This document shows, in pieces, positions 670 to 36,363 of a DNA stretch of 64,000 bases. The notes under the pieces were generated by a model, which was not told where the DNA came from, made no database searches, and saw nothing but the letters and a program-made list of their open reading frames with translations. The translations under genes and the position numbers were made by a program. The DNA comes from Gavia stellata. Lineage: Eukaryota; Chordata; Aves; Gaviiformes; Gaviidae. The DNA is taken from contig NC_082637.1 of NCBI RefSeq assembly GCF_030936135.1, positions 11,917,001-11,981,000 of the forward strand, in the 5' to 3' direction. The first letter of the stretch is position 1; each line of letters begins with the position of its first letter.

Positions 670-893
670 AAATGTGCCAAAGACCCCTATGGGACTCAAG
701 TCTCCGTATGGAACCAGACCAGGAGAATTACAAGAAGAATGAAGAAGTGATGCTCAGCTGCCCTGAGGGTTTCCAGCCACCCTTCACCCATGTCAAATGT
801 ATGGGAAAAGTCCTGTTCATTAGCAACGGGAAACCTGTACACAGAGAAGCTTGGAATGGAAGGGACAGCAGAGGCAGATGGATCAACATTCAG
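1..893. repeat. Tandem duplication, copy 1
   Basis: Positions 1 to about 893 recur at offset +1,132 with no difference that I could find, through intron and most of a sushi exon. The unit begins at or before the window edge. After about 893 the copies differ by a few bases, then by unrelated intron. The absence of divergence means a very recent duplication, conversion or an assembly duplicate. Confidence 0.85.
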
Positions 894-3800
894 CCCACCT
901 TCAGCGTGGAGTGCGATGGTAAGGGAGGCATCAGGAGCTCTCCTGGCTGCCCCATTCTGCCCTTCCCGAGCAGGGGAAGGCAGGCTGTGCGTGCACAGGA
1001 GGTTCCAGGCTCTCTGCCTGCCTGGGGAAATGGTCGGTGCTGCTGAAGGCAGTGTCGAGGCAGCCCAGGAGCCTGCCCCGTACTTGCCCCGGGGCTCCAG
1101 GGGAGCCTCTGCAGAGCTGGGTCTGGTGCCAGCCTCAGTCCCTGAAGGTCCCGGCAGGAAGGGGCTGTGGGATCAGGGTGGGGGGCAGTGGCCAGAGCTG
1201 CCCATGCCAGGCCAGGTCAGAGCCACCCTGCAGTGCAGAGGTCTGCTTGTCCCCCTGCCTGCCCATGCAGGTGAGGGATCCTGGGGACATCTCCTGCAGC
1301 CCCAGGAGCTGGAGCGGAGGGGACCGAAGGGAGGTCAGCCCTTGGCATTGGGGCTGGAGGCTTTGGGGGATGTACCTGGGGGAAAAGTGATGCCCTCCCT
1401 CAGAGGATGGGCATTTGGGGCTGCCCTGGGAAGGGACAGAGCTGTGCTGAGTGTGGGGACGACCGTGCGCAGGTGGCCCAATGCTCAGGGGAGGTGGACA
1501 AGGAGAGGCAACGTGGGAACCCCCCTGCTGCGGGCTGTGCTGTGGCCAAGAGTGTCCATGGACACAACAGTGGATGGGGGAGTTTCATGGATGAGTCATC
1601 CTTCACGCTTTGGGTGCACAAGGAGAGCCCGCTCCCAACACTCGTTGTGACGGGTCATGTCCTGGCTGATGGACGTGTCACCTTCCCCCTCCCTTCAGGG
1701 GCTGGAGGATTGCTGGGGACTGCTGATACCCCACCACCTACCCCTGCCACACCTCCTCAGCACTTTACACCCCAACTAACACCCACTTTCAACTCTGACA
1801 GAAATGTGCCAAAGACCCCTATGGGACTCAAGTCTCCGTATGGAACCAGACCAGGAGAATTACAAGAAGAATGAAGAAGTGATGCTCAGCTGCCCTGAGG
1901 GTTTCCAGCCACCCTTCACCCATGTCAAATGTATGGGAAAAGTCCTGTTCATTAGCAACGGGAAACCTGTACACAGAGAAGCTTGGAATGGAAGGGACAG
2001 CAGAGGCAGATGGATCAACATTCAGTCCAGCGTGGAGTGCATCGGTAAGGGAGGCATCAGGAGCAGGATGATACTTTGGAGGGGGGGGGTGCTGGGAATG
2101 TGTCTGGGTGAGAGTCAGCATGGGAAGGTCATGGTTTTCCCCTGGGGCCAGTGCCGTGCGGTTTGATGACCGCGGAAGCAGCTCCTGCAAGACCAGGATG
2201 AAATGTGTCCCATTGTGCTCTCCTGTGTTACCAAAGGATGACTCCAACCACACAACTCAGAGGGTGTGAGGGCAGAAGGACCCTTTTGTTGCTCCCTGTA
2301 AGCTGTGATGTAGCCCAGCTGGTGACACACTGTCCTGTGCTTCCCACTTTTTCCCCCACCATGTCCTGATGTGTGACTGAATGGGGGCAGTTGCCTCACT
2401 GGGGGAATTCTGCCAAAAGGTCATGTCCACCTTCTGAGCGCACCATGAACCCAAACTCCTCCTGATCCCCTACCAGAGTTGGAGTGACCAGTTTTCGCCT
2501 CTCGCTTTCTCACCCACCCAACTGGATGGGGAGCTGGGCTGTCTGACCGCAGAACCCTTGCAAGGCTGGGAGGGGAAGGGAAGAAAGTGACCCTCTGGCA
2601 ATGTTTCCTTCACAGAGATCCTCCAGGTTGTCCCCGAGACCTTGGAGATTTCCAGCACCAGCATCAAACTGAACTGGACCTGCAGGCTCACCGACACCTG
2701 CCAGCGCATTCGGGCCAGGTGCCGGCTGGAAGAGCGTTCCTCCCCTCCCTGTAAGGCTGAAGAGGTGAAGGGAGAGGAGATGTTACGCGGCCAGGAGGGA
2801 ACATTTACATGCCCCCCTCTGCAGCCCTTCACTGTCTACAGAGTCACCATCTTCCTGCCCCCCAGCACGATCCTGTACACACGGCTCCTCACGACAAAGG
2901 AAACGGGTACGTGTCCTCCTACATGAAATGTAAAGATGGCCTTTGCCCGTCAACTCAGTCTGATCATTCACTCCCTGCAGTGACAGTCCTGAGATCAGGG
3001 CTGCTCGGATCCTGTGGGGCTCAGAGAAAGGGGCTGTGCAGGGCTCTGGAGCACAGCATGTTCCCTCCTCACTCTCCCCTGGGCCAGGAGCTGCCTGCAC
3101 CCTGCTCTGGGCTCAGCCCCTCCTCACTGGCCCCGTGCGTGACCCCGTCCTCCTGTGCTTCCAGTGCCGGACAAACCCAAGAAGCTGTGGCTGGATCCCA
3201 GCACGGGGTCCCTCAGGTGGGAGCCGCTGCCTTCCTGCAAAGGGGAGATCATCGGATACCAGGTACCAGGGGACCAGGGACTGCCCACAGTCCTCCTCAC
3301 CTTGCCAGGTGCCTCCCTGCCTGGAGCTCTGTGCAGGATGCCTAGGGGAGAGTTGGGAAGGGAAAGCCATGATGACCTGCAGGAGGAAAGAGAAGTTCAG
3401 GGCTCCTTTTGTGGGGGATGTCACTACGGTGGCTGCGGTGTTGCAACATCATGCCAGTGACCTGGCCTCAGCCTCTTTACACCTATATCTATCTCTTCAA
3501 AGGAACCGCCTCCCTCTTGCTCTCAGCTCTTCACAGAGCCCTGGTCCTTTGCTGATGGAGGCAGCCCCTCTGACGTCTTCAGCGTTGGCTCCAAATGCCT
3601 CCTCTCCTCCTCTGGCCTGCTTTGCGGTCCGCGCATGGGGCCAAGGCTCCTGCTGGTTCCGCTCCAGGAGCCTTCCACAAGCGGGGCAGTCGCAGGGAAG
3701 GGCAGGCTTGCAGGGGTGCTTCGCTCTCTCTCATTGTGCTGTGGGCAGTTTCCCAGAGGGCAGCTGGGAGCTGCCACCCTCCAGCTCTGCCTCCTGTCCC

Positions 3801-6800
3801 CAGCTGAACGTCACGGCCAGGAGCGCGCAGGACGGTGCCTTCCTGGAGGTGCAGCGGCTGCGGCTGAGCGGCTCCGTCACTGAGCACCCGCTGCCCGAGC
3901 ACAGCCCCAGCAACAGCTACGTGGTGACGATGCAGGGACTCACGGCCGCCGGAGCCGGGGCTGCGTTGCTGTGGGAGTTTCAGACCAACAGCTCGGGTAA
4001 GGCTTGTTGTGCCCCGGTCCCTCCAGAGCGGCCACAGCGTGCACCCTGGCTGAGGCAGCTCTCTGTCCCCAGCCCCGTGGCCGCCTGGCCGGCATGGAGG
4101 AGCCTGGGCACAGAGGAGCTGTGCTCTGCAGCCTGCATCGCCCGGGGCTGCCCCTGCTCCCCACACAGCCCCTGCCCTGCTGCCCGCTGATGCTCGTGCC
4201 CCGCTCTTCCCCTCCAGACACTCCGCACCCTCTTGACATCGGCTGCCACAGCGCCCGTGACATCTCCCCAGCCCAAGGGACAGCCGTGCTTCCACTCCGC
4301 CCCATCGCCCAGCTCCCCGAGGCGGCCAGGTGAGTGCAGCCCCCGGCAGCTCTGCTCTCCGCAGCCCCGAGATGGGTTTCCCCACCTGCAGCGTCTGCCC
4401 GCAGCCGCCTCCATCCTGCTCTCCCCGTCTGCCCTGGCCCTCTCACCACCCTGCCTTGCAGGGAGTACCAGCTCATCGTGGCCATGACACACAACGGCAC
4501 GGCGGTGGAAGGCGCCTGCTCGGGGGAGCCGCAGCCCTTCAACGCCAGCCGGCAGCCCGGTGCCTACGTGGCCGCCGTGCTCAACCTCACCGCCCCCACG
4601 GACTTTGTGCTGGGCGACGGGACCCGCGGGCAGGGTTACCACAACGCTGCCCTCCGGCCGGGCTCGGACTACACGGCCCTTCTCCGCCTCGTCCACCGCT
4701 CGCAGCAGGTACCTGTTGTGGGGGGCTCCTGCTCCCCGGGGACGCTGCCAGCCGGGGCCACCGATGGTGAGCGGCAGTGCTGCACAGACTCCACTCCCGG
4801 TCCCGGCGCTGAAAGCCCAGGTGCCTTGGCAGAACAGTGTCCCCGGGGTCCTTGGCCACAGCTGGGACTTTTGGTGGTTGTGGCTGGGAGGTCTTTGCCC
4901 CCAGGGTGGGCAGTGGGGCAGGAGTGGCCTGAGCTCTCCCGCCTGTCTCTTCCAACAGGCAGAGAAGTTCACCTGCGTGTGCTACAGCTTCTCTACTGGT
5001 AAGTGGGCTCCTCGCTCCCTGTGCCCGAGCCTCTCCCTTTTCCCAGACTGGCCGCTTCCCTTGGAGAGGAGCTGGCCCAGCACAGGATTGGTGGGGTCTC
5101 ATTGTCCTACTTCCATATTTGTGGAAGTTCTCTGAATCTTGAGGCTATCCGTGGTAGATGGGATTTGGGCAACCGCGGGCCACTTGGGCAAGTGTGGCAC
5201 TGATGGCAGCTGGACACTGCATCATCCCTGCCACGATCACATATTGCATCTTAGTCCTAGTGCAACCCCAGAAATGCAAAAAATACCTCACCAGGCTCTG
5301 GCCATGCCTGGGGCAGCCAGGGAGACAGGGTCCACGCTGAAGGGTATCACACCGAGCACCAACCTACTGTTTCTGCAGCAGCTTAGCTATTCTCCCATGC
5401 AAATCCTGTGGGGGGAGATGAGGGAAGCTGCTTTTCACCCCACACCCCTATGGGATCTCCTGACGCCTGGTTCAGGCTACGTGGGAGCATGACTCTGGGC
5501 TGTGCTGGTTGCAGGACAGGAGCCGGTGCCTCTGCTAAGCAGGATGCCCGTGGTTATGGCAGTAGCGCTTGTCATTGCATTCCTGGCACTGGGGATTTTG
5601 CTGCTCTTCGTGCTCTTCAGGTCAGTATGTGCCTCACCTCTCCTGCTCTCTGTGAGGCATCCAGTACCTCACGCTGCCAGGGAGTGTCCAAGTGGACCCT
5701 GAGATAAAGCAAGGTAGGAGGCAGGGCTGTTACACAGGCAACAGCCTCTCCTCTGTCTGTCTCTTCTGCTCATCTATGGGCCTGATTTGCTGTTTTGCAG
5801 GCGAAAGTACAACAGTTCAAAAACCTCGGAGAACAACAGCACTATCCCCCTGCGAAGATTTCGAGGAGGTGCAGTATTAGCAGAGGGCCTGCATGCCTTT
5901 TCTGGACAGGCTGTCTGTTAAAAGCACAGGCAGGGTGCTTACAGGGTCTGTAAGGTCCTTACAGGAACAAGGGGACCAGGGCTGGCTGGCGTGGGTTAAG
6001 GGACACCTCCCAGGAGAAAGGGACATGCGTGGGGAGGGACAGTCTAGGGTTCGGTGGGGTCCTGACCACCACAATGCCAGCTCAATCCCAGCTACAGAGC
6101 TCCAGGGCCAGACATCGGGTGCATGCTCAAGTCCTGGCCTCGTGGTCTCCATAGGTGCGTGCAAGCTGAACACTCAGATCCCGGTGGAGGAACTGCTGGA
6201 GGCTCTGAAGAGGTTTAAGAGGGCAGAAATAGAGGCAGAGCAGATAGAGGATGAATCAGTCGACAGCCATGGTGCTGGGCGTCTGAGGGAGTATCAGGTC
6301 TGGTTTAGCTTTGCTTTCCCACCTGTCTGCACTGTCCACGCAGTGCCAACCCCTTCCTTGGGTGTGCAACGCAGCTGGCCTTGGCCAGCCTCAGAACACG
6401 TGCCAATGCAGAGTGGGCTTGTCTTCTTCCTCTGCAGCAACTGTCCTCCACTTTGTTGCATCCCTGCGATGCTGGGAAGGAGCTGTGTAATCAGAGCAAG
6501 AACCGCTACAAGAGCATCATCCCATGTAAGCAGAGCTCTCCAGGGGTTGGCACAGGCACTTGGAGGTGGTTGGGCAGTACAGGGTGCTGGGCTGGTGTAG
6601 GTGCCCCTTCGGCTACTCAGCAATGCTGAGCTCCTTGCCTCATCCTCTATGGCCGCTGAACCCCAGAGGGATTTTCCAAAATTGTCATGTTGGTCCCACT
6701 GTTTTATATCCAGTTGGAGAATCCTTGTTCTGCTCCTCAAATCTTCCTACAAGCTTAATCATTCATCATTGTATTCCCGTTCCTGCTCTTAGTCATTGCT

Positions 6801-9800
6801 GAACACTGCCGTGTCCCATGCAGGTGTGGCCATTTGTGGAAAAGCAGAGGGAGTGGCCCAATTTCTATCAAAACTTAAAGCTCCTCTGGGCCCCACATGG
6901 TGTGGACATTTAGCCATTGCATTAACAGTCTTCCCCAAAAACACATTGCATTTTCTGCTGTGCCATGTCACCTTTTGTGTCATTAGCTGTTCTTTACCTC
7001 TGAACATGTCCTGAGGCCTGGAGTGCTGCTGAAGAGGGAGCAGACAGTCCTGGGCTTTCCTAAATTACATCCCTCTCCTTAAACAGTCATTTTCTTGCTG
7101 CCCCAAAGAGACAGTCCACCGACTCCCACTCTTCTCTTTCAGACGATCACTGCCGTGTGGTGCTGCAGCCCTCTGACACGGGGAATGGCTACATCAATGC
7201 CAGCTACGTGGATGTAGGTAGCAAGGAATTGCTGCCCTGGGCAGGGTAGAGGTGCCTGAGCACGGTAGGAGGGGTGCTTGGCTGTGCTGGGTGCGGACGG
7301 TCCTGCTCACATGGGTGGCCCCCGGGTCTGGCACTTGTTGCCCTCAAGTGCTGGCAGATTTTGGGATGTCACTTTCCTTGCGTCCTCTCTGAGCTGCCCA
7401 GCGTACTCTGGGTTTGTGTGCAGTTCTTATCCCTAATGAAAAGGGACCTGTGTGGGGGGACAGGAGCCAAGATGCAGCCCCTGGGTACCCACTCTCCGTG
7501 GTGGCCAGGAGTGGTGCCGTGGGACACGTGCCGAAGGCTCTGGCCTCTGGTGCCTGTGGCGTTGGGTTCTTTGTCTCATTCCGTGTTAAACGTTTAACCC
7601 GTGTGATCAGAGCTGTTTGAACCTCTCCCCCACAGACCTACCGGAGTCCACGCTTCTTCATTGCAGCTCAAGGTGGGTGCTCCCAGCTTTCATGCTCAGG
7701 AGATGCCAGTCCCTGCCCTGAGCATTTTGGGGAGTGCGGACTGGTACAGCAGCCTAGGAGCTGTTAATGGCTCAGTCCAAGGCCCTGTATCTCTCGGGCC
7801 TCTGTCTTGGACAGTGATTACGGCTGCTGTAGGGCATGGAAAGCCTCAGTGGCAGTTTAGCAGTGGCCAGCTGGAGGCAGTCCCGGCACTGCACAGGCTG
7901 AGGACATGGTCCTTCCACCCACAAGCCTGGTCTGTTCCCTTTGGTGGCTGGCATGACAGGGACAAACCTGCAAATACCTGACACGTCTGCACTCAGTGCA
8001 CTCAGAGGCTGTCTCCAGTGGTGCAAAGCCGAGATGTGTTAGTCTGCTCTGTGCAGCATGCGGTGGGGATGTCTCAGGCTCCTTGCAAAAGCTGCAGAAA
8101 TGCTCTTTAAGAAATAGGACCCTAAATGCGGGAGCTGCTCATGGTCGTCTTGAGAGTCTGGATGGGGAAGCATCAGTGAATCCCTGACATACCCTGGGCT
8201 CACCTGCCCTCCCGCTTCCCTGTCCCAGTTTCTAATACGGGTGATGATCCAAGGTGCCCAGCACCCCCTGCCAGGTGCTGCTGTGCCCAGGCTGTGCAGT
8301 GTCAGTCCCTGAGCAGAGGGAAGCCCAGGGCTGCTCGTAGCCTGGGAACGTCTGAGCTGTGTCTGGGAGCAGCTACACCCCCATGGCTTGGGGTTGAGAA
8401 CACAGGGTTCTCCTCTTCCTCCCCAAGGCCCCTTGCCTGGGACGGTGCTGGATTTCTGGCAGATGGTCTGGCAGGAGAAGACCTCAGTCATTGTGATGCT
8501 GACGGGCTTAGTGGAGCAGAACAAGGTAGAGAAACCATCTCAGCCTGTGCTCAGCTTGGGCCTCCCCAGAGCCCAAGCTTCCTTGCCTGCTTTGCTTTGC
8601 TTTGCTTTGCTCCCAGTGCAGCTGTCAATGAGGGCAGAAAGCAGCTCCACACCACTGCTGGCTTGCAACGCTCCCCTCATGAGTTTGCTCGTGCTTAGCA
8701 GTCTCGCTGCTGTTGACAGACCAAGTGCGAGCAGTATTGGCCAGAGCAGGAGCAGGTCTACGGGGACTTCACCGTGACACTCAACAACACCAGGACCACC
8801 ACGGGCCTTGTCACACGCATCTTCTGCCTGCAGAAGGTAAGCCTGGCGTGTAGCTGAGGTGGGGATGCAGGATGGTTTTGGGTTTCAGCAGCTGGTGGGA
8901 GCTGTTGGCCACAAGACACTGTGGGGAGCCCTGCCTGGTCTCCAGAAAGGGCAGGTCAGCATTGCTATCACTGGATGCCATGCCAGGGCATCAGCCCCAG
9001 GTTTGTGTACCAGGCAAAGGCAATCGGTCAGCTCCAGTGGTCACTCCAGCTGAGTCTGGACTGATGATGCACATGGGCAGATCATGTATCCTTGAGGGCT
9101 TAGGTGAGGTCATAACAAAGGGTATAAAAGCAGCTAAAGGGTATAAAATGGCATCTCTGTACATCCAGGATGATGGGACAGGTGCCTGCCTGTCACCTGG
9201 ACCAGTCTGCAGAGGGTCCACACTGAAGCTCCGTGGTCACTTACAGCTCCTAAACCTGAACAGATAGTTTATGATTTAAGATAATTTACGTGATGACATT
9301 TCGCAAGACGGGTACTTCTGCTGAAGTTATACCTCAGATAATAAGCAGAAACTGAAGGAGCTGCAAGGAGGGGAGAACAGGTACAATATAAAGAAATTGC
9401 AGCTATGCATATTCTTGTCTTTTCTTGTCTTGCCCAGAGCAAAGTCTAGCTGAAAGGTAAAGCTCCAAGAGCACCTGATAGCGGGACATAGCAGTTCATT
9501 AGTTCAGGCCAAATGAATGTGATGTTTGGGGAAAAATACATGATGGGCTGGTAACAAAAGTGACTACATTCACATCAGTGCGGTACCAGCCTTAGGAAAT
9601 ATCTTATTTGGGGAAGCAGGGCTTTTCAATGACTGTGGAAACACTCTACGCTCTATTTTTTTTTCCCCTCTGGGGCACAAGCTGCATTTACTGCCCTGAG
9701 TTCACTGTTCACAGCATGGGGAAGAGGAGAACAAAGTGAATTGTGTGGCAGTGTGCTGGTGAATTTGCCCTTTGCCATCTGATGAGCTATAGTGGAGCAG

Positions 9801-12800
9801 TCATTGTGGTAGGGGTGCTGGGGGGGGACACTGTGTGCTTTTGCCCCCCTGAAGTGGTTTTGTCCACTGCTCCCTACTTGTTGGCATGCAATTACTTCAC
9901 GCAAGTTTCCAGGTTGGTTCCTGCTTCCTGCTCCCAGCCATGTCTCCTTTGCAGGCAGGCTGTGCTCTCCCAAGAGTGGTGGAGCAGTTTCACTACCTGC
10001 TGTGGCCAGACCATGGTGTCCCCACAAACCCTGCTCAGCTCCTGGGCTTAGTGGAGGTGGTGAACAAGAAGGGGTTGGAAGCACCTGCTGGACCTGTGCT
10101 GGTGCACTGCAGGTACTGGGACTGGGAGCGCTTGGGTGCTGGGGCAAGGCTGGCCAGGGCAGCACTGACCCCCGATTTTCTGTGTCCTCAGCGCAGGGAT
10201 TGGGCGAACAGGTACCTTCATTGCCCTGGACTTCCTCCTGAAGATGGGTAAGGCCGAGGGGAAGGTGGATGTGTTTCACTGCGTGCAGAGGCTGCGGGAG
10301 CAGCGCGTCAGCATGGTGCAGACAAAGGTGAGGAGTGTTACTTGCTCCCTGCACACTGTCAGGCTGCAGATCTGCTCCCCACCCTTCCCAGGGATGTGGC
10401 ATGCAAAGACACACTGGCCATGCCCTTCATGGTCTAGCCACAAGGACTGGAGCTGCCAGGTGATGGAGACGGCAGGACCTTGTTTTCAATGCCATGTCCA
10501 AACCTAGTCGGGATCCATGTTCCCTTGAGACCCTCTCAGGTGCCAGCAGCATTCATATGCACCAGTTGCCCTGGTATAGAAGGGCTGTCTTGTAGGCAAG
10601 GAGCATGAACGAGAGTCCACATGTCCTTCAGGCTTTCTGGATGTCTGCCCTCGTGGCATCTTCTAGGCAGCAGTGTCCCAGTCGAGGGACTACATCCCCA
10701 TGGTCTTGCTCAGTGCTGGGACCCTTTGGAGGAAACTAGGCAGGGTAGGACCATCCAGCTGTTTGTAGGATTAACTAGTTCACTGATTTTCTGGGTTTCC
10801 TTCCCCAGAGCAGAAGTCTGGTCTGAGAGGGAGCATTAAACCACAGGAAGATGGTCTTGGCTGGGTTGTTGCAGTTGCTGGCTGTTTCTCAGAGCAGGGC
10901 TGTCTGCACTGAGAGGTGTCTGGCCTCAGGGCCTGACAGCAGGAAGGTGAAGGGTGGACCTGGCTCATTCCTGGCACAGGTCGATGCCAGTGAGCTGGTG
11001 GTCTGGAGTCCCAGGGCTCCTCATGGAGCTGCTCCAGACTGTGGAGCTGACCCATGTCCTCATGCAGGAGCAGTACATCTTCCTGTACGAGGTGCTGCTC
11101 GAAGGCTTGCTCTGCGGCAGCACCGGGGTCCCAGTGGAGAGCCTCACCAGCCATGTCCGCTGCCTTCGAGAAGCTGAGACCTCAAGGCACAACAATGTCC
11201 TTGAGAAGGAGTTCAAGGTACCACCAGGATCTGGTGCACTGGGTGTGGTGCTGCAGGGACTGGTCTGCGGTGCCTCCCCCCTACTGCTCCCCTCCCCAGC
11301 TGTGGGATGGAGATGGGGGAGCATTTCTCTGGGGTGGCTGAAGAAGGGGAGGAGCTGACAGGCAGGACTTCCTTGGCTGAATCATCCCTACAGGCCCTGC
11401 GGAAGTTTTCCGAGTTGTTCCAGCTCCTGCCATGCAGAGAAGCGGAGAAACCCAGCAACCAGCCAAAGAACCGCAAGCCAGGGATCCTGCCAGGTACCAC
11501 TGGCAGGGCCGGGCAGCCCCTTGCTCTGTGACCCAGCACCTGAGAGCAGTGGGGGGGGAAAATGCTGCCCTGCTGCTTCCCTCCCCAGCACCATGCTGCT
11601 AGCAGGTTCTGCCCAGGGTCCAATCGTCATTTTCTGGTTGGTAATAAACATAGATTAGGCTGGTCCCTCCATGGGAACAAGACCCTATCCCTGCTTCCTT
11701 CTGGGCTTGCTGGAGGCATGTGCTCATGGGGTACACCTGGCATAAACATGCCCCTGGATCTAATCTGTCCCAGAGGAGGAGCCCAGATGAGGCATCAGGG
11801 AGCAATGAGGAGGGTGGACCTGCTGCGCCTCTATGCCTCCGCCCATGGGGTTTTGGACATCCCACGTCAGGCAGCCCTGAGCTGTCATAGCCATGGGGCT
11901 GGTGGGGCCTCTTCATCCGAGCCTCTCCAGCTGTGCCGCAGGGAGCCACGCTGACCCCACCACTTGCAGGCAAAGTTGTGTGGGGAGAGGATGGCTCACC
12001 ATTTCACTCTCTGCCCCTTGCCTCTGCAGCGGATTCCTGCCGGCCCATCCTGATGTCCTCATTGAACACGGACGGCTCACCAGGTTACATCAATGCCGTG
12101 TTTGTCAACGTAAGGCTCCAGCCCCAGCCAGGGGTGGGAGCTGCTGACAGCGGCAGCCACCCCCCCAGGCACCACTGCTTAAGGCAGGGGTAGACCATCC
12201 CACCCTGGTTTGAGGTGTCCCAGCTCTGGGGCTTCTTCACAGTGACTACTTCCCAGCAGCTGGGGCCCGGCTGCCAGGAGATGGCCCCCGTGATCAGCCT
12301 AAGCCCTGCCTGCACAGGCAGCTCAGCGGGCACAGCTGCTGGCTTTTGCCTGCTGGGAGCAGAGCCCGGGTGTGATGAGCTGAGAGGGCAGCGAGGTGCG
12401 AGCCTGCTCCAAGCAGAGCCCGGGTGTGATGAGCTGAGAGGGCAGCGAGGTGCGAGCCTGCTCCGAGCAGAGCCCGGGTGTGATGAGCTGAGATGGCAGC
12501 GAGGTGCAAGCCTGCACTAAGCAGGGCTGGAGTGCCCTGCATCTCCTTGTGCTCTGCCCCGGTCTGCAGAGCCCTGGCTATGGGGAGGTGAGGAGCCGCT
12601 CCAGCTGTCAGAGGGGCTCTCAGGGGGATGGATCGTGTGACTTTGTCCTCCCCCACACCCCGGTGTGTTTTGCAGACATACATGGAGGAGGACAGACTCA
12701 TCATCACCCAGCTGCCTCTGCCCACCACACTGGTGGATTTCTGGGCTCTGGTCTGGGATTACACCTGCACATCGGTGGTTGTGCTGAACCAGATCCAGGA

Positions 12801-15212
12801 GCTGGATGAGGTCAGCAGCCCAGGCGCAGCCCTCCCCTCTCCCGGCTCCCCATGGGCTGGGCAGTATGCTTTCCGCCTTTGCCCCTGCACAGCTCTTCCC
12901 ACGGAGAGCCCTGCTTTCTGCAGGAGCTCACGGTAAGCTTGTGGGCTCCACCTGGGAGAGCCCTGAGGACAGTCCCAGCACCATGGCACTACAGAGGTGG
13001 GGTGTCCCCAGTCTTACAGCAAGGGAGCATCCCTCAGGTTTTGCTTACCCCTGCTCAAGCGTCCTCTCTGTGGGAGTGTTATTTTTCTGACTGCAGCACC
13101 ACGAGTTGGTCCCCAGGAAACGGCAGGCAGAGCACCCACGTGCACGCTGTGGCTTATGGGCGAGGGGCTGGTGTGAGCACACCCGTACAAGGTGCAGAGC
13201 TCTGCCACGCGTGCAGGATGGGGCTATGTGTGATCACATGCGTGTCTTCCCCCCCCCACCGCAGACATACATGGACTTCTGGCCCACCCAGGGCGAAGCT
13301 GCTTACGGCCGTTTCCATGTCCACCTGATCTCAGAGGAGCCCGGAGCTGGCTTCACAGCCTGGACACTTGCCCTCACCAACAGGCAGCAGGTGGGCTCTT
13401 TGCACAGAGACAGCGAAGTCCTTTGAGAACAGCCCTTGCAAGAGCTGGGAGGACCAGCCTGGCTCCAGCATCAGCAAGCTTTGATTTGGGGTCAAAGTCA
13501 CAGCTAGGGAGGGCAGAGTCCACAACAGTCAGAGGGATCTGATGGGGTCCTGGAAGGGCACTGGCCGGAGCAGGGCCTTTCACCTGGGGAGAGAGGTTAG
13601 TCCTAAGAGGGTGAGGCTGCAGGCAGAGGTACAAGGCAGTGGTACGTTTGTGTACCTTTCTAACTCGGAGGACAGCAGCTGTGGATAGAGTTTGTGCATC
13701 TTGGTGGTGGTTCGTGGATGGGGACAGCTATTACAGGTAGCTGGGAGCTGGACTGGCATAAGTCTGAGCTGCACCTGGTGCTCTGCTCTTATCTTGTGCT
13801 CTGTCTGTCTGCTGATCTTGGCGCACTCAGTGGAGAAGGGCAAAGTCTGGGACTGGGCCATCCCACTGTGGAGCTGCTCCCTTGATCCAGTGTGCATGGC
13901 TGAGCCAGGACTGATACACGCTGTCCCTCCCTTCCCTCCATGAAGCCAATGGGTTTCTTCTCTTCCCAGACCACTGTCTTTCTTCCCCACTAGCCCAAGA
14001 AGTCTGCACTGGAAGTCCGGTTCTGGCAACTGAAGGACTGGCCCATGCAGCAGCGTCTTCCCTCGCACCCTGCCACTGTCATCAGCCTGCTAGGGAAGGT
14101 GGAGACTCACCATCGGCAGAGCCAAGATGGACACATCCTCGTCACCTGCTGGTGAGCAATGTCTCTCGGAGGAGCAGCTGTGGCACAGAGCTGTCTCAGC
14201 CCAGGCTGCCTCAGTGAACTTGGTTCACAGCTCCATCTTGGGTGGACACACGGTCATGAATTCAGCTGTGTTCAGGGAGGAAGGCTTCACTGTGGAGGCT
14301 GGCTGGGTGCAGATCATCCTGATAGCCTGCATATCTAGTGGGACACCTCTGAGGCTCTGAGGCTCAGCCCTGGTGATCCCAGAGCAAGTGACTCTACCCT
14401 TGCTCTCCTCCGCAGGGATGGTGCCAGCCGGAGCGGAATCTTCTCTGCTGCTAGTTTCCTCTGCGAGCAGATCCAAAGCGAGGGGCTAGTGGATGTATCC
14501 CAGGCTGTGAGGATGCTGAAGAGGCGGCGGAGACAGCTGATTAAAGATGTGGTAGGTGCTGACTTCAAACCCAGTTAGGATGGCAACACCGGAGCAAGAG
14601 CCATAGCCTGAACTGTCCCAGCAGCTGCCCTAGCACCTATGTGCTCAGATCATGGGGGGGCAGCAAAGGCAGATGAGACCTCTGAAAACCCTGTTTTCTG
14701 CCGCTGGGACATACCCACTCACTCAGGGGCAGGTTCTGCAGAACTGCATGGGCACCAAAGCATTCTGCAGGCTGAGTTGCCCCTTTCTGGTCCACCTGGC
14801 CTGTGCAGAGGGGGACTGCACGGGTGGGTGCTCAGGTGCCTGTTCTGCACCGACCTCACCACCCGGTCTGGGTGCTAGAGGCCATCATAGGGTGAGCACC
14901 CCAGATGGGAGTGAGTAGCAGACGCTTCATGCAATGGATGCTGGCTCTCCTCCTGAGACCAGCTGGCTCCAGCATTGGGGTAGCCCAGCTCTTGGCTACT
15001 GGAGCACGTGCCTATGATTCCTCATCAGGGGAAGGTGGGCTCCGACTGGAAGGAGGAGAAGCTGTTGGCAGCCAAGACTGGTCTTCCACTGCAGGTTTTG
15101 GTGCACCAGGTTCTCATGCGTATACTTCTGTCCACAGGAGCAGTATGGGTTCTGCTATGAACTAGCCCTCAGTTACTTGAATTCATTTGAAACCTATGGG
15201 AATTTCAAGTAG
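670..15212 (+). CDS. Gene A: R2B-type receptor tyrosine phosphatase with sushi/FN3 ectodomain (5' partial)
   Basis: Predicted membrane receptor that dephosphorylates phosphotyrosine in the cytosol. Exons: 670-918, 1802-2044, 2616-2906, 3165-3262, 3804-3996, 4218-4329, 4462-4708, 4959-4998, 5515-5620, 5801-5868, 6155-6297, 6438-6525, 7143-7213, 7636-7672, 8428-8525, 8720-8836, 9955-10112, 10192-10327, 11068-11217, 11394-11493, 12030-12109, 12676-12810, 13265-13390, 13994-14151, 14416-14551, 15138-15212. All have AG/GT borders and phases that chain without a break, giving about 1,150 residues. Order: two sushi-like modules (four Cys each), FN3-like modules, an R2B-type membrane-proximal domain (GDGTRGQGYHNAALRPGSDY), TM helix, D1 and D2. 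D1 keeps KNRY, NASYVD, AAQGP, WPDHGVP and HCSAGIGRTG, so it should be active. D2 resembles the R2B second domain (LPLPTTLVDFWALVWDYTC). The first exon and signal peptide lie left of the window. No mammalian orthologue is recognised; the ectodomain is not the MAM-Ig-FN3 array of PTPRK/M/T/U. Confidence 0.87.
700..1218. repeat. Block shared with gene C (inverted)
   Basis: This sushi exon and the intron after it match the reverse complement of about 31,235-31,753 in gene C almost base for base. Homology stops sharply near 1218, which is also within copy 2 of the tandem duplication. Confidence 0.75.
1133..2025. repeat. Tandem duplication, copy 2
   Basis: Second copy of the 1,132-bp-offset repeat; it contains sushi exon 1802-2044 up to the divergence near its 3' end. 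Confidence 0.85.
2616..4998 (+). other. Gene A FN3-like and membrane-proximal ectodomain exons
   Basis: Exon 2616-2906 encodes a module rich in Cys. Exons 3165-3262 and 3804-3996 together make an FN3 fold split by a phase-0 intron (LRWEPLPSCKGEIIGYQ, then LNVTARSAQD). Exons 4218-4329, 4462-4708 and 4959-4998 encode the segment just outside the membrane. That last segment aligns by eye with the corresponding part of PTPRK/PTPRM (a YQxxV start, then GDxxxxQGxxNxxLxPxxxY), which is the best extracellular evidence for R2B ancestry. Several NxS/T glycosylation sequons occur. Confidence 0.75.
3380..5097. repeat. Inverted repeat arm 1 (gene A)
   Basis: Position p here pairs with 23,065-p on the minus strand over most of 1.7 kb. 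It covers FN3/membrane-proximal exons 3804-4998 and their introns. Only a handful of substitutions were seen, plus one short indel near 5035. Homology stops just before the TM exon. Confidence 0.85.
6155..11217 (+). other. Gene A PTP domain D1 (predicted active)
   Basis: Ten exons from 6155 to 11217 carry the first phosphatase domain. Hallmarks seen in order: IPVEELLEALKRFKRAEIEA lead-in, KNRY substrate loop, GYINASYVD, FFIAAQGP, DFWQMVWQ, WPDHGVP (WPD loop acid), and VHCSAGIGRTG (P-loop Cys and Arg) formed across the 10112/10192 splice. MVQTKEQY supplies the Q-loop. All residues needed for C-x5-R phosphatase chemistry are present. Confidence 0.88.
8590..8610. repeat. (TTTGC)n microsatellite
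   Basis: About four TTTGC units in a gene A intron. Confidence 0.7.
11394..15212 (+). other. Gene A PTP domain D2 (degenerate)
   Basis: Seven exons encode the membrane-distal domain. The signature reads TCWDGASRSG instead of HCSAGxGRTG: the His before the Cys is Thr, though Cys and the downstream Arg remain. The WPD position reads DWPMQQR, with no general-acid Asp in place. GYINAVFVN and the C-terminal EQYGFCYELALSYLNSF are preserved. As in most RPTPs, D2 is probably a non-catalytic, regulatory or binding domain. The protein ends ETYGNFK at the stop at 15210-15212. Confidence 0.8.
12361..12522. repeat. Intronic minisatellite, 54-bp unit, three copies
   Basis: Three consecutive 54-bp units starting AGAGCCCGGGTGTGATGAGC at 12361, 12415 and 12469, with a few differences in the last. 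They lie in a gene A intron between D2 exons. The unit is a multiple of three, which makes spurious open frames on both strands. Confidence 0.85.
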
Positions 15213-16965: not shown

Positions 16966-17552
16966 CTGTGGAGACCAAGGGCACCCTGGGCAGAGGCTGC
17001 TGCGTGCCCTCGGCTGTGTGGGGACCTCACGCCACCACAGCTGCCTGCACACACGAGTGTCCGAGACAGGCTGGAGCACAGGGCAGCGCCTGCCACAGCC
17101 CGACCTCTTCGTCCCAGCTGTGCCCAACCCCAGAGGTGCCCACCTGTGCCCAGGTGAGAGCAGCAGTCCCCCAGCCTGACCCTCCTGAGACCCCTCCCAG
17201 GAGATCTCTCCCCTGGGGGGGGTGTGACACAGCCATAGGTCCCTCAAAGGCCTGAGCTATGAGCCACCCTTTGGGATGCCCGTCTTTGCCCGCCCCTGCC
17301 CCTGCTCCAGGCTGGGAGCACTGCCTGGAGCTGCGCTCTGCTGCGGCGTGGGGCTTAGCAGGCAGAGCCGTCCTGACCATCCCGGCACCACGGGGCTGGA
17401 GCAAGTGGGGAGGAGTGTCAGTGAAGAGGATGAGCAGATGTTTCTCCTGAGGCCAGGCTCTCCTGGGAGATTTCTGCTCTCCTTCCAGCTGCCACCCAGC
17501 CCTACAGCCCTTTCTGTGATGGCAGTCCAGAAAATTGCATTTTCCTACCTTT

Positions 17553-20500: not shown

Positions 20501-23500
20501 CTGGACTGGCTGGGAACTGAGGGTCATCACGGCTTTCCCTTCCCCACCCTCCTCGCCCGCCTGCACAGAGCTCCAGGCAGGGAGGCACCTGGCAAGGTGA
20601 GGAGGACTGCGGGCAGTCCCTGGTCCCCTGGTACCTGGTATCCGATGATCTCCCCTTTGCAGGAAGGCAGCGGCTCCCACCTGAGGGACCCCGTGCTGGG
20701 ATCCAGCCACAGCTTCTTGGGTTTGTCCGGCACTGGAAGCACAGGAGGACGGGGTCACGCACGGGGCCAGTGAGGAGGGGCTGAGCCCAGAGCAGGGTGC
20801 AGGCAGCTCCTGGCCCAGGGGACATGCTGCAAAGGGATCCCCCAAGCAGGGTTTTGTCCCCTACAAAGGCTGCAGGTCTCGCACCAGCAGCAGGGGCAGC
20901 AACGGTGTGGTGAGGAGCGGGAGAGTGAGGAGGTAACGTGCTGTGCTCCAGGGCCCTGCACAGCCCCTTCCCCAGAGTCCCACAGGCTCCAAGCAGCCCT
21001 AAACCCAGGACCATCAAGGCAGGGAGCAGATGATCAGGCTGAGTTGCCAGGTGAAGGGGATGTTTATCCACCTCCCCGACCTGTGACACAGCCCAGGACT
21101 GTCCCTTTTCTCCTATACTTGTGCGCACATACCTGTTCCCTCCGTCCTGACCAGCCATGTGAAAAGGATGGTGCTGGGGGGCAGGGAGATGGTGACACTG
21201 TAGTCGGTGAAGGGCTGCAGAGGGGGACAGGTGAATGTTCCCTCTTGGCCGTGTAACATCTCCTCTCCCTTCACCTCTTCAGCCTCACAAGGAGGGGAGG
21301 AAGGCCCTGCCAGACGGCACGTGCCCTGCATGTGCTGGCAGGCGTCAGTGAGCCTGCAGGTCCAGTTCAGTTTGATGCTGGTGCTGGAAATCTCCAAGGT
21401 CCCGGGGACAACCTGGAGGACCTCTGTGAAGGAAACATTGCCAGAGGGTCACTTCCTTCCCTTCCCAGCCTTGCAAGGGTGCTGCAGTCAGACAGCCCAG
21501 CTCCCCATCCAGTTGAGTGGGAGAGAAAGCGAGAGGCTGAAACTGGTGACTCCAGCTCTCTGGTAGGGAAGCACGAGGAGTCTGGACAGGAACAAATGTG
21601 GGTGAATGAGTGGACTGCTATTGCTCAAGGCAATTTTCCCCACCAAGTCAAGACTGAGGTGTCTGTGGGTCCCAGCATCTCTAGAGTCCAACAGATGCAG
21701 CTCTTAGAAAGACCTACCCTTTTCCTGCTCTGCATAGATCCCAGGAGAAGGGTTCATTTTCCCTGTTAGTGTATTGAGAGATGGAGCTCTAGGACAGCAG
21801 GCAGAGTAGCCCTCCTACACCAGATCCCCAGGAAGGGCATAAGGGGAAAAAGGGCCCCAAGCTGCTTCCCCCAGGCCTCCCAAGAAAGGCCAGGAGAAGC
21901 AGAAGCTCCAGGGACTGGAGCACCCATGAGGGGCTCATACTATGCACAAAGCTTTCACAGGGTCTGATGGACCAGCATTTGACCCTGGTGCCTTCTGGCA
22001 TCATCTAAGAAGGCAGGGCTATTTCACGTCTTAGGAACCTTCCACATGAGGACAGCAAAGCACCCAAGGGGACCAGGCGAGACACCCCGAAAGCCTGGGC
22101 CATGCATGGAACTGTCCCCAGGGGGCATGTCACAGGAGAAGCATCCCCTTCCCCAGACCTCCCCATACTACCCATGCCCACAGCTGCCTGCAGGGAACCA
22201 GCCCCGAGCCCTCTTCCTGCGGCCCAGGTCTCAGGGCACTCAATGAGCTGGGGAGCATCAGAGGACTATTGTTTTCAAAACTTCAGGGACCTCTCACCAG
22301 GTTCCCAAATCAGCCCACTACTGCCCTGTTCTCCCTTGAAGAGGACCAAGCTGTGAGAAGATGGTGCAAGACTGTGTCCACCAAGAAGGGGTGGTGGGAG
22401 GGGGACCAGCCTACAGTAAGCAAGCTGTGACACTCACAGCTGCACGGTCTGAGAGGACACAGGCAGCAGAGCCCTCTGATCCCCCTGCCCCAACCGTGAT
22501 GCCATGCAGACCGCAAACTCCACGACACATAGCTCTCCCATGCTGCTTTCCTTTGTGCACATGCTGTTGCCAGAAGCCCTCAATGACACCCTTATCGCCC
22601 GCACCTTCAGCAAGAACCTCCCACCCACTGGTGAACTGCAGGCTGCCTCGACACTGCCTTCAGCAGCACCGACCATTTCCCCAGGCAGGCAGAGAGCCTG
22701 AAAGCTCCTGTGCACACACAGCCTGCCCTCCCCTGCTCGGGAAGGGCAGAATGGGGCAGCCAGGAGAGCTCCTGATGCCTCCCTTACCAGTGCACTCCAT
22801 GTTGGACCTAATGCGGATCCAGCCACCTCTGCTGTCCCTTCCAAGCCAAACTTCTCTGTATACAGGTTTCCCATGACTGATGGACTGGACTTCGCTCGAA
22901 CATTTGACATGGGTGAAGGACGGCTGGAAACCATCAATGCAACTCAGCATCACTTCTTCGTTCTTCTTGTAATTCTCCTGGTCTGGTGCCAGCTGGAGTC
23001 TCGAGTCCCACCGGGGCCTTCGGCACATTTCTGGCAGAGGTGAAAGTGGGTGTTAGTTGGGCTGGGCGGTGATGAGCTGGGGCAGGGGTGGGTGGTGGGA
23101 GACAAATCACCAGCAATCTCTCCAGCCCCTGAAGGGAGAGAAAAGGTGACATGTCCATCTGCCAGGGTGTGACCCACAGGGAAGGCTTGTTGGGAGGGGG
23201 CTCCCCTTGTGTACCCGAACCGTGAATGATCACTTATTCATGAACCTCCCCCATCTACCCTTGTGTACAGGGACGATACATTCCCTCCTCTACAGCCCAC
23301 AGCAGGGAGTTTCCCAGGACAATCACCCCTGAACTAGGAGACCCCCTCCAGTCACTCATTCAAACATGTCACCCACCCCAGCTCCGGCTGCCCTTGATGG
23401 CCCACGGTTCACCAGCCCTGCTGGGGTGCATTCTCTCCAGCCATGGCTCACCCCTTTTACAGGGATCAGAGATGCCCCTGTTACCCTTCTGGGGTCTCTG

Positions 23501-24473: not shown

Positions 24474-24602
24474 GCTAGTACAAGGTCTGCAGGCGGGACT
24501 GAAATTTCAGCCCCACTGAGCCTGGGCATCCGCAACTGACTGCAAGACTTGCAGCCACAGGAAGGAAACAGACACATGGGGAAATCTTATGAGATACAGG
24601 AG

Positions 24603-24629: not shown

Positions 24630-24639
24630 ATCCAGATCA

Positions 24640-26509: not shown

Positions 26510-26515
26510 TTTATT
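26510..26515 (-). terminator. Gene C poly(A) signal (proximal)
   Basis: AATAAA on the minus strand, 432 bases after the gene C stop and within a block homologous to the gene B 3' end. This is the likelier of two signals for gene C; the other is at 25594-25599. Confidence 0.55.
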
Positions 26516-26946
26516 GGTTGTTCAGACACAGCAGCACAGCTGTGAGGGCAGCGCAGTTGGGTCAAAGTCAGGCAGAGGCTGGGGTCTAGGTGGATATGGG
26601 GATACGGAGGGGAGAAAGAGGGGCTGGGACCCAGAGAGCTGTTTTGGTTTCAGAGGACAGTTGCAGGCACCAGGATGTGGGTGAGATGGCTTTGCCAGAG
26701 CACTGGAGGATTACCAGAAAACATCCTTGCTGGCACAAGCAGGTGGTCCCAGGCTTTGGGCTTCTCCTTCTCTGTGACAGAGGATGCTGGAGCTTGGTGA
26801 GGGAGGAAACCTGAGGTCAAGCAATAACCCAGCACAAGCTATATGAGGTCCTGCTTCCAGTGGTGGAGGACCGAGCCTCAAGAAGGGGCTATGGGAAGTG
26901 TCATCAGCACTGAGCCTCAGATATCCACCGCATCTTCTCCTCTCCC

Positions 26947-29900
26947 TCACTGTCTCACTGAGGGCTCCAGGACAAGCGAGGGCTGGGGCAACGGCTCTCC
27001 AGCCTGGCCACCTTCACCTGTGGAGACCAAGAACACCCAGGGCAGAGGCTGCTGTGTGCCCTTGGCAGCGTGCAGAGCTCATGCTGCCACAGCTGCCCCT
27101 CTCCACCCTCTCCCTGCCATGTGTGGGAACAGGCAGGGCACTCCATCTCCTACCTGCATCTTCTTCTGCCCAAATAGTCTCCTTGATCACACAGTAATTA
27201 TCCAAGTTTTCATAGGGCTGGAGCTCTGGGGGGGGCAACATGACAAAAACAGCCTGAGAGACCCAGGGGCTGCGGGAGACGGAGCAGGGCAGACCCAAGC
27301 AGGCAGCAGCACTGGGGGCTACTCTCCTCCCAGTTCCAACCCCAGCCCTACAGCAGTCTCTGTGATGGGGACCCTACCTGTGTAATGATCCTCCTCGGCT
27401 TTGCTGGGCAAGGCCTTCCTTTTCCTGGGAAGGCAAAGGGCAGTCCTGAGTCAGGGGAGAGGCTGACATGGCCCAGGGTCCTGCTGAACCCAGCAGCAGA
27501 GGCATGGAGGGCTCTGCACACCCTCCCTCTGGGCCTCTCATGAGCTGGCAGGCATTGCCCATCAGCACCCCAGGCGACAGCAGCAGTGGCAGGAACAGCA
27601 ACAACGGAGCGGGGCTCTTAGCACACACGGTCCCTGCCCCAGCCCTGAGGAAGATGCTTATGAGCCCCAGCCGGGAGCCCTGCAGCCGAGCTATGGTAGG
27701 ACCAGCCAGCTGCACCTTCCACACCTGGAGAGGGATGGGAGCAGCTGGGGGAACCCCTTCTCCGTCCCCAGCCACCCCACAGCATAGCATGACCTGAGGC
27801 AGAGCAACAACTCCAAGTCTCCTACCTACTCACCTGGACAGCACAAACCACAGGATCCCTGCTGACAGTGGGACCAACACCAACACCATCACCACTACCG
27901 TGACCGCCAACCGAGGCCACGGGCCCAGAGGCTGCCCTGCAACTAACACACAGCCAGGAGTGAGTGCCACAGCCTGGACCATGTGCCAGCAATGGCCCCG
28001 ACCTTGGCGTTGGGTGTGTGCATGTGTGTAGACACATGTGTCCAGGCTCTGCTGTCCTGGCTGCTGCAGGGACAGGCAGCGAGGCACAGTCTTCCCCTGC
28101 TCCCACGTCTGCTGGGCAGGGCAGGGCAGAGGGAGGCTCTGGAGCACAGGGACTTGCACCATCTCCCATACACAACAGAGGGTCTGGAAGCCCAGTCAAC
28201 CAGCCTGTGGACAGCAAGAGGACACACAGGCCCAGGCTCAGCAGCCCTAGTGCTCTCTGACATCAAGCCCCCCCTGCCTCCGTGCACCCGAGTGCAGGGA
28301 TGGGTGTCTTTGTCTTCAGTGGAAGAGTAGAGGGGCCAGCTCTGCTCTCACATGCACGAACAGGTGCATGAAGCTCTGGGGACCAGGCAATGCACCCCCT
28401 CGAAGCAGGACTCACCCAGCCCCACAGCCCCCACTGCTGAGTTGGGCTCTCGGGGTGACCACGCTCTCTTGGTGGGGACAGAGCGGGTGCACACACAACT
28501 CCGAAAGCTGCTCCAGGCTCAGCACTCACTCCCAGGGAGGTCACCTCAGCCAGACCCAGGGCAGAACAACCATTACCCGAGACATAGGTTTGAAATTCCA
28601 GCAATGAGGCAGCCCCAGCACCAGCCACTGTGAGGCCCTGCACCGTCACCGTATATTTGCTTCCAGGTGTCTGACGAAGTGGTGTGTACTGAGTGACAGA
28701 CTGGTTCACCAACACCTGCTTGAATTCAAGGAAGCTGCCATCGTGTGCTCTTCTGGATGTGATGTTCAGCTAGAGGAAGGACAGGGAGCTGGTGGGGAGC
28801 TGCTCCTGCAGCTCTGCAGAGAGGGGCTGCTACTGCTGGCTGGGGACAGGTCCCCTCCTGTCCCCACCAGAAACACCAGCAGTGTAGAGCTGTGGGCCCT
28901 GGCTGAGGAGGGTTCACCCCTCTCCTCAGACTGCCTGCACAGAGCTCCAGGCAGGGAGGTGCCTGGCAAGGTGAGGGGGACCACGGGAAGTCCATGGTTC
29001 CCAGGTACCTGGTATCCGATGATCTCCCCTTTGCAGGAGGGCAGCGGCTCCCACCTGAGGGACCCCGTGCTGGGATCCAGCCACAGCTGCTCCGGTTTGT
29101 CTGGCACTGGAAGCACAGGAGGACCAGGTCACGCATGAGGCCAGTGAGGATTTGTCCCCCACAAAGGCTGCAGGTGCCGCAGCAGCAGCAGCAATGGTGT
29201 AGTGAGGACAGGGAGAGTGAGGAGGGGACGTGCTGTGCTCCAGGGCCCTGCACAGCCCCTTTCTCTGAGCCCCACAGGATCCGAGCAGCCCTGATCCCAG
29301 GACATCACTGCTAAGGCCACCTTTACATTTCATGTAGGAGGACACGTACCCGTTTCCTTTGTCGTGAGGAGCCGTGTGTACAGGATGGTGCTGGGGGGCA
29401 GGGAGATGGTGACACTGTAGACAGTGAAGGGCTGCAGAGGGGGGCATGTAAATGTTCCCTCCTGGCCGCGTAACATCTCCTCTCCCTTCACCTCTTCAGC
29501 CTTACAGGGAGGGGAGGAACGCTCTTCCAGCCGGCACCTGGCCCGAATGCGCTGGCAGGTGTCGGTGAGCCTGCAGGTCCAGTTCAGTTTGATGCTGGTG
29601 CTGGAAATCTCCAAGGTCCCGGGGACAACCTGGAGGACTTCTGTGAAGGAAACATTGCCAGAAGGTCACTTTCTTCCCTTCCCCTCCCAGCCTTGCAGCT
29701 GACCTCTGTCATCCCCACCACTCCCTCACTAGCTTGTCCCTGGCACGGTGCAGACAAGGCCATCCCGCCTTCTCCAAGACTACACTCAGGCACTGCCTGC
29801 ACCTTCCTCTGGCCCTGGACGGTTCCCAGGGGTACTCTGGGTGCTCCAGTGATTGTGGGAGGGTAAGAGCAAGTACTTGTGGCCTCTCTGCAGCCACCAC

Positions 29901-35900: not shown

Positions 35901-36363
35901 AGGAATGGCACCACTGCTCTGACTGTTCTGGCTTCATCTGTCCACCGTGCAACAAGAACGAGCCACGTCCTGCTCCCAGGGACACTGCCCACTCCCCGGA
36001 GGGACACTGCAGCTCCCGCACCCATGGAGGCTTTCCCAGCACACCGAGGCTTGGTGCCCTCCATCCCCAAACAGAGCTTTGCCCCAGCACAACCCAACGG
36101 ATGCCCAAGTGTCTCAGGACTGATGCAGACACCAGCTTCAATCCTCTCCAACACAGCCGCTGTGGGCTGAACAGAGTAAAGCCACATAGCAAACGTGCAG
36201 GGAGGAGCAGCAAAACCTTTTCTGTAAGAGAGAGGCGCAACCCACTCTTACCTGCTTCCTTGGATTCCCCCTGGTTCTTGGGACCAGGGTTCTTTTGGCC
36301 CCATGCAAGCAACAGAAGGGCAAGGACCAGGAGAAAGGCCAGAGCCAGTCCTCGCAGGGCCAT
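26947..36363 (-). CDS. Gene C: four-sushi/FN3 receptor with an ITAM-like tail
   Basis: Predicted type I receptor of 633 residues. Exons in transcript order: 36363-36252, 33306-33124, 32448-32203, 31783-31535, 30540-30304, 29640-29350, 29106-29009, 28769-28577, 27936-27834, 27424-27378, 27225-27154, 27017-26947; 1,902 nt in one frame with consistent phases. It has a signal peptide (MALRGLALAFLLVLALLLLA), four sushi-like modules (the first short, with three Cys), FN3-like modules, a TM helix without charged residues (LAVTVVVMVLVLVPLSAGIL) and a tail of about 63 residues. Across the 27378/27225 splice the tail reads EEDHYTELQPYENLDNYCVI. Y585xxL-x8-Y597xxI fits the ITAM consensus, with an acidic residue two before each Tyr. 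YENL between them also fits a Grb2 SH2 site (YxN). It lacks the membrane-proximal domain of A and B, skipped in phase. An activating role is inferred. Confidence 0.83.
27154..27424 (-). other. ITAM-like motif of gene C (two exons)
   Basis: Exon 27424-27378 ends at D-H-Y-T plus one base. Exon 27225-27154 begins by completing Glu and reads LQPYENLDNYCVI. The joined sequence D-H-YTEL, eight residues, then YCVI meets D/E-x0-2-YxxL/I-x6-8-YxxL/I. Spacing between successive tyrosines is six residues. None of the three has the V/I/L/S at -2 expected of an ITIM. In known receptors such motifs are phosphorylated by Src-family kinases and recruit tandem-SH2 kinases such as SYK; that is family knowledge, not shown here. 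Confidence 0.72.
31235..31753. repeat. Gene C partner of the 700-1218 block
   Basis: Inverted counterpart covering the third sushi exon (31535-31783) and its following intron. Beyond the block towards the preceding intron, similarity drops noticeably (about 31,784-31,930). Confidence 0.75.
35176..35297 (+). pseudogene. Possible relic FN3 half-exon inside gene C intron 1, opposite strand
   Basis: After a TTCTGCAG acceptor the plus strand reads through ASSSWDPSGQGGEIHDYQ. This resembles the FN3 half-exon of A/B/C ending in CKGEIIGYQ, with aligned TGGGA, GGGGAGATC and TATCA/TACCA blocks at DNA level. No GT donor follows the YQ. Orientation is opposite to gene C, so it would be left from a plus-strand copy. 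Chance resemblance cannot be excluded. Confidence 0.3.

Follow-up and report, generated by a model that had tools for sequence, protein, structure and literature searches.

We analysed a 64,000-nucleotide window of the Gavia stellata genome (contig NC_082637.1), in which three adjoining receptor genes, A on the plus strand and B and C on the minus strand, are followed by a protein kinase gene. The three genes share outer modules and end differently, in a receptor tyrosine phosphatase in A, in a 14-residue basic tail in B and in a tail resembling an immunoreceptor tyrosine-based activation motif (ITAM) in C. The locus almost certainly belongs to the avian Trojan gene family, and the best explanation overall, to which we give a probability of about 0.88, is that A is a Mystran-type, B a Trojan-type and C a Thracian-type gene, the chicken proteins being different from those found here. 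A preliminary description of this DNA held that no set joining a receptor phosphatase to an ITAM member had been described; this was wrong, since the trio was published in chicken by Petrov et al. in 2015 (PMC4372362, available to us in part). The trio is thus already known as the Trojan family, and what it does we treat as hypothetical.

The gene models were built by hand from splice sites, exon phase and homology among the copies. All 45 introns (25 in A, 9 in B and 11 in C) were of the GT-AG type with compatible phases, and the reading frames held no internal stop codon. The span 670-36363, which opens with the leftmost A exon in the window and closes at the ATG of C, contains 26 exons of A, 10 of B and 12 of C. 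The preliminary description had placed three such genes here and had seen in them a shared ectodomain with different tails; both points were borne out, the latter by the gene models together with the tail motifs. Splice sites were scored with a matrix for which A and B alone served as training set, and are expressed as percentiles among all GT or AG dinucleotides. The splice sites of the C tail exons (exons 10-12), which were absent from the training set, lay at or above the 98.3rd percentile. In A, the donor of exon 10, the juxtamembrane exon, was weak (GAGGTGCAG, 63rd percentile), and the exact boundary of this exon is the least certain among those of A; six further A splice sites scored between the 78th and 90th percentile. 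No signal-peptide exon of A was found in positions 1-669, so the 5' end of A lies beyond the left edge; the same positions are a 98.9% copy of the A intron 1133-1801. Searching the window with the A, B and C proteins by tblastn gave weak D1-D2 matches inside A and the match between the B and C tails; outside A no second PTP (protein tyrosine phosphatase) copy appeared, and the C tail had no copy in A.

The kinase gene is one that we take to be TESK1, the published synteny having also been used for this name. In chicken, Mystran, Trojan and Thracian lie on chromosome Z between RUSC2 and TESK1 (PMC4372362; accessions of the trio XM_003642970.2, FN643572.1 and XM_003642971.2). Mystran is a plus-strand receptor phosphatase of 26 exons with two PTP domains, for which one complement control protein (CCP, or sushi) domain is given. 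Trojan, on the minus strand, has 494 residues, 10 exons, one CCP and two fibronectin type III (FN3) domains; four basic residues and two putative serine sites are found in its short tail. Thracian, also on the minus strand, has 493 residues, 10 exons, pairs of CCP and FN3 domains and an ITAM. The window repeats this arrangement, with A(+), B(-) and C(-) followed by TESK1 as on chicken chromosome Z. Like chicken Trojan, B is encoded by 10 exons, counts 494 residues and carries four basic residues and two serines in its tail; an ITAM and two FN3 modules are present in C, and tandem PTP domains in A. Gene conversion between members, read here from mosaic identity, is a further likeness. The order, strands, tails and the flank read as TESK1 all speak for the locus being that of the Trojan family.

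The same paper reported homologues in ten further bird species, in three reptiles and in the coelacanth, with none found in mammals. In chicken, the Trojan protein was reported and RNA sequencing (RNA-seq) reads were found for all three genes, highest in macrophages; the splicing of the Thracian tail rests on a RefSeq gene model. Gene conversion was described in six species (corrected P-values 0.02-0.24), the largest tract, of almost 350 residues, joining chicken Mystran and Trojan. Positive selection was mostly extracellular, with two sites in the Thracian tail, and Trojan and Mystran were suggested as possible competitors for a single partner. In the sections of that paper available to us we did not find three of the results given below, namely the exchange between A and C, the stop codon in B where C has its first ITAM tyrosine, and the match of the third FN3 module of A to the fourth of PTPRM; the main text, as available, does not use the words "decoy", "inhibitory", "paired", "stop codon", "pseudogene", "truncat" or "frameshift". 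No other publication on the Trojan genes was recognised by title among those listed in our literature searches.

The tails set the three genes apart. The tail of C, 63 residues encoded by three exons (RKRKALPSKAEEDHYTELQPYENLDNYCVIKETIWAEEDAGEGGQAGEPLPQPSLVLEPSVRQ), holds EDHYTELQPYENLDNYCVI, that is, YTEL-x8-YCVI, and fits the ITAM pattern [DE]xxYxx[LI]x6-8Yxx[LI]; between the tyrosines of the motif there is a third YxxL, YENL. In 200000 shuffles of this tail, the x6-8 pattern including its acidic residue turned up in 0.057% and the x6-12 form in 0.14%; when the acidic residue was not required, the share was 0.74%. This test was made after the fact. The tail of B is RKRKSLPSKTKEDN, of 14 residues. 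Its exon agrees with the first tail exon of C at 39 of 47 bases, and the TAC codon of the first ITAM tyrosine of C (in YTEL) is a TAA stop in B, which accounts for the short tail. No counterpart of the second ITAM exon of C was recognisable in B (its local alignment scored 22, and 200 shuffles gave a mean of 20.1 and a maximum of 40). We infer that the ITAM was lost in B rather than gained in C.

In A, Pfam PF00102 matched two stretches (E 8.8e-141). PTP domain 1 carries WPDHGVP and HCSAGIGRTG, the catalytic motifs of PTP domains; domain 2 reads TCWDGASRSG, lacks the WPD aspartate and, as these motifs are commonly understood, is probably inactive.

The identity among the three genes is uneven, and A is a mosaic, with C-like sushi and FN3-1 exons, B-like FN3-2 and FN3-3 exons, and transmembrane and PTP exons of its own. 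A and C were 92.8% identical in the sushi exon and 97.9% in FN3-1 (A and B 81.5% and 88.0%). The values for A and B were 100% in the first FN3-2 exon, 99.0% in the second and 99.1-100% in the FN3-3 exons (A and C 94.9% and 73.2% in the two FN3-2 exons). Synonymous divergence (dS) changed in the same places, being 0.014 in FN3-1 and 0.68 in FN3-2 for A and C, and 0.21 and 0 for A and B. Informative sites joining A-B, A-C and B-C numbered 7, 29 and 10 in the sushi exon, 0, 30 and 5 in FN3-1 and 73, 1 and 1 in FN3-2; taking the 156 sites as independent, none of 20000 permutations was as uneven across blocks. The shared block of A and B extends beyond the exons, its introns being identical at 603 of 603 bases and the stretch upstream of it at 423 of 424. 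We read this pattern as gene conversion linking A to each of B and C; some of the identity could stem from partial duplication or from mis-assembly. The ratio of nonsynonymous to synonymous divergence (dN/dS) was 0.32-0.52 in the more diverged pairs, indicating that the coding sequences of B and C are constrained. Between A and C, four of the five differences in FN3-1 were nonsynonymous, few overall.

Three observations on the same region stand by themselves. The FN3-2 and FN3-3 exons of A and B differ at 4 of 690 bases, all nonsynonymous and too few to test. Between the two FN3-2 exons of B, several hundred bases (19686-20521, minus strand) do not align with A. At the left edge, positions 1-938 and 1133-2064 form a tandem copy of 98.9% identity that includes a sushi exon of A, and this is either a recent duplication or an assembly error; the two sushi exons of A are identical at 241 of 242 aligned DNA bases.

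The cytoplasmic part of A was compared with PDB chains by bit score, without a tree. It matched tandem receptor phosphatases across both domains. Against single-domain chains it scored 276 bits for PTPRK, 274 for PTPRT, 262 for PTPRM, 242 for PTPRU and 235 for PTPRE, and domain 1 of the tandem PTPRS chain scored 258. With domain 2 alone, the best matches were the second domains of PTPRS, PTPRA and LAR, and no R2B second domain stood among the best 60 PDB rows. The ectodomain of A gave four phmmer matches in PDB with E<1, namely EphA2 (0.018), PTPRM (0.019 and 0.14) and KIAA0343 (0.1), and PTPRM was the sole match aligning over two modules. Against shuffled sequences, FN3-3 of A matched FN3-4 of PTPRM (z 9.0, a score reached by none of 1000 shuffles) and did not match FN3-3 of PTPRM (z 0.6) or the FN3 of EphA2 (z -0.3). 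FN3-2 of A scored higher with EphA2 (z 10.4) than with FN3-3 of PTPRM (z 6.6) and thus says only that it is an FN3 module, the specificity lying in FN3-3 alone. A joint score of FN3-2 and FN3-3 as an R2B mark (z 13.8) was cut back on the same ground, FN3-2 favouring the EphA2 control. The R2B guess of the preliminary description for the phosphatase of A therefore gained support from the PTPRK, PTPRT and PTPRM bit scores and from the match of FN3-3 to FN3-4 of PTPRM, and we infer that the Trojan-family set descends from an R2B-type phosphatase. In the available text of PMC4372362, which contains none of the terms R2B, PTPRM and PTPRK, the membrane-proximal part of the bird proteins is a region without assessed domains and rich in disordered binding sites, and the lizard proteins are given three FN3 domains.

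All three genes have ectodomains of CCP and FN3 modules. Pfam fn3 was found in A, B and C. Pfam sushi fell below the cut-off in A (16.4 against 20.7 bits), was not listed in B, and in C reached 29.2 bits as a whole, above the cut-off, although no single stretch passed. An alignment of the seven sushi-type exons has nine invariant columns, including C2, W7, C30, W61 and C81. An AlphaFold model made on this alignment had a pLDDT of 87, and the ten best Foldseek rows for it were all complement proteins, none of the 253 matches being significant (best E 0.68). Two C sushi exons matched complement receptor 1 in PDB (E 5.7e-6 over all stretches, single stretches being weak). FN3-1 was assigned from its position and from a model that is all-strand but of poor quality (mean pLDDT 57). 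In C, the first sushi-type exon falls short by about 20 residues and has no third cysteine, being either degenerate or specialised.

Several points weigh against assigning A, B and C to the three chicken types or against a common function. Orthology to the chicken genes rests on architecture, synteny and lengths. C has 633 residues and 12 exons where chicken Thracian has 493 and 10; B spans 6.9 kb and chicken Trojan 5.4 kb (PMC4372362); and the 26 exons of A already in the window equal the full number of chicken Mystran. A comparison by position, without alignment, at sites listed as positively selected found the chicken residue at 3 of 9 sites in B, at 2 of 19 (N-terminal anchor) or 3 of 19 (C-terminal anchor) in C and at 4 of the 34 sites compared (of 52 listed) in A, which shows only that the window proteins differ from the published chicken ones. 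One flank, the kinase gene, lies on the expected side, and the other, RUSC2, would fall outside the window. C lacks the membrane-proximal FN3-3 of A and B, so the ectodomains of A and C are not wholly common. In chicken, only one co-evolving residue pair was found between Mystran and Thracian (PMC4372362). Two further differences from the published family are that A has two sushi exons where one CCP domain is given for chicken Mystran, and that an exchange between A and C is absent from the 8 rows of Table 2 of that paper.

A paired-receptor system unrelated to any published family is hardly credible; several literature searches listed no matching paper by title and abstract start, but the chicken trio of PMC4372362 agrees in order, strands, flank and tails and has homologues in ten further bird species. 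It is also improbable that B, C or both are non-functional copies and that the A-B identity goes back to a duplication of very recent date or to faulty assembly. Mis-assembly or a very recent event would be expected to leave 603 of 603 identical intron bases and a 98.9% tandem copy in A, and the ITAM part was not found in B; yet all splice sites and frames of A, B and C are intact, the dN/dS values of the more diverged pairs count against non-functional copies, and chicken has a reported Trojan protein, RNA-seq reads of all three genes and a long Mystran-Trojan conversion tract of its own. Judged from the chicken data, B and C would be unlikely to be unexpressed pseudogenes.

More weight, while still unlikely, falls on the view that the C tail serves Grb2 binding through YENL, MAPK or TRAF2 docking or endocytosis rather than as an ITAM in use, and that the B tail signals through serine or 14-3-3 motifs. 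YENL fits the Grb2 SH2 pattern and sits between both ITAM tyrosines. For Thracian, PMC4372362 predicts MAPK and TRAF2 motifs; for Trojan, it predicts motifs of the MAPK, 14-3-3 and PKA kinds. Against this, the spacing and the acidic residue in C fit the ITAM consensus, as 0.06-0.14% of shuffles do, and none of the three tails contains an immunoreceptor tyrosine-based inhibitory motif (ITIM) or switch motif (ITSM) pattern. We consider it rather likely that the C tail works as an ITAM.

With A, B and C taken as Mystran-, Trojan- and Thracian-type genes, the following scheme can be proposed. The three would be leukocyte surface receptors seeing related partners. C would signal through its ITAM once Src-family kinases had phosphorylated it and a Syk-type kinase had been recruited; where A and C are both engaged, domain 1 of A would remove phosphates from C or from its kinases; and B would compete for the partner without signalling. 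For B, a role mainly as competitor has nearly an even chance. That A acts on C as such a phosphatase brake is possible, with the odds somewhat against it. CD45 and CD148 dephosphorylate the dectin-1 ITAM in mammals (PMC10815196, available to us in part), which makes the role proposed for A plausible; the same source describes how large phosphatases are shut out of tight contacts, and A could in this way be separated from engaged C. Rather doubtful is the wider proposal that conversion keeps moving ectodomain modules between a phosphatase and each of two others, an ITAM receptor and a receptor that lost its ITAM by a stop at the first ITAM tyrosine. One locus would on this view maintain three receptors for the same partner, a phosphatase, an activator and a competitor that does not signal, each descended from an R2B-type phosphatase. 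The trio would be one of few natural examples of an immune receptor set whose brake is a receptor phosphatase bearing the outer modules of the ITAM member. What is added to the published family is a sharper hypothesis, of exchange between phosphatase and ITAM genes and of a traceable ITAM loss in B, and these two features make the idea of a shared partner directly testable.

Table. Positions of the genes and their parts in the window
Feature	Position	Strand	Remarks
Gene A	670-15212	+	26 exons in window; 5' end beyond left edge
A two sushi exons	670-918, 1802-2044	+	inside 98.9% tandem duplication
A FN3-1	2616-2906	+	gene model
A FN3-2	3165-3262 + 3804-3996	+	gene model; Pfam fn3
A block shared with B	3380-5098	+	98.8% identical, inverted, to 19685-17955 in B
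A FN3-3, membrane-proximal	4218-4329 + 4462-4708 + 4959-4998	+	gene model; PTPRM FN3-4 match
A transmembrane exon	5515-5620	+	gene model
A juxtamembrane exon	5801-5868	+	gene model; weak donor
A tandem PTP domains	6155-15212	+	exons 11-26; gene model; Pfam; PDB receptor phosphatases
A stop codon	15210-15212	+	gene model
Gene B	24473-17553	-	494 residues, 10 exons
B signal-peptide exon	24473-24362	-	gene model
B sushi exon	23030-22788	-	gene model
B FN3-1	21423-21133	-	gene model
B FN3-2	20732-20635 + 19261-19069	-	gene model
B block shared with A	17955-19685	-	inverted copy of A 3380-5098
B FN3-3	18847-18736 + 18603-18357 + 18106-18067	-	gene model
B transmembrane exon	17779-17674	-	gene model
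B tail exon	17595-17553	-	gene model
B tail exon up to aligned donor	17549-17595	-	39/47 bases as first tail exon of C
Gene C	36363-26947	-	633 residues, 12 exons
C signal-peptide exon	36363-36252	-	gene model
C sushi-type exons	33306-33124 (short), 32448-32203, 31783-31535, 30540-30304	-	gene model
C FN3-1	29640-29350	-	gene model
C FN3-2	29106-29009 + 28769-28577	-	gene model
C transmembrane exon	27936-27834	-	gene model
C tail exons	27424-27378, 27225-27154, 27017-26947	-	gene model; splice scores
C ITAM-like motif	27154-27424, two exons	-	EDHYT (27424-27378) joined to ELQPYENLDNYCVI (27225-27154)
Protein kinase gene, read as TESK1	49511-60542 (ends approximate)	+	Pfam kinase models match 3 of 5 exon pieces

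Outside these genes, positions 43867-45656 contain two segments about 81% alike and about 1.2 kb apart, in which no gene was recognised by eye. Scans of the window for tRNA genes and Rfam families returned 0 and 0. The PTP region of A gave 13 pattern matches and 0 relatives in a viral contig collection, and the C ectodomain 17 pattern matches and 0 relatives in a genome contig collection, neither collection being aimed at animals.

Among known systems, the R2B phosphatases (PTPRK, PTPRM, PTPRT and PTPRU) resemble A by bit score in the tandem PTP region with an R2B-like domain 1. They differ in that A, as far as the window shows, has sushi exons in place of the MAM-Ig start, ahead of three FN3-type modules and with no MAM listed by Pfam in the part within the window, and in that B and C have no phosphatase. 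The action of CD45 and CD148 on ITAM receptors is similar in that a receptor phosphatase opposes an ITAM receptor, as proposed for A and C; unlike A, CD45 and CD148 are not known to share an ectodomain with the receptors that they oppose. The paired receptors CEACAM1/CEACAM3 and Siglec-11/16, as described in the sources available to us in part, are alike in having similar ectodomains, differing tails and gene conversion between members, and the ectodomains of A, B and C are likewise homologous and kept similar by conversion, if the mosaic identity is read in this way. The trio differs from them in that the cytoplasmic parts of A, B and C contain no [SILV]xYxx[ILV] ITIM pattern and that a tandem receptor phosphatase, A, takes the place where an ITIM member would stand.

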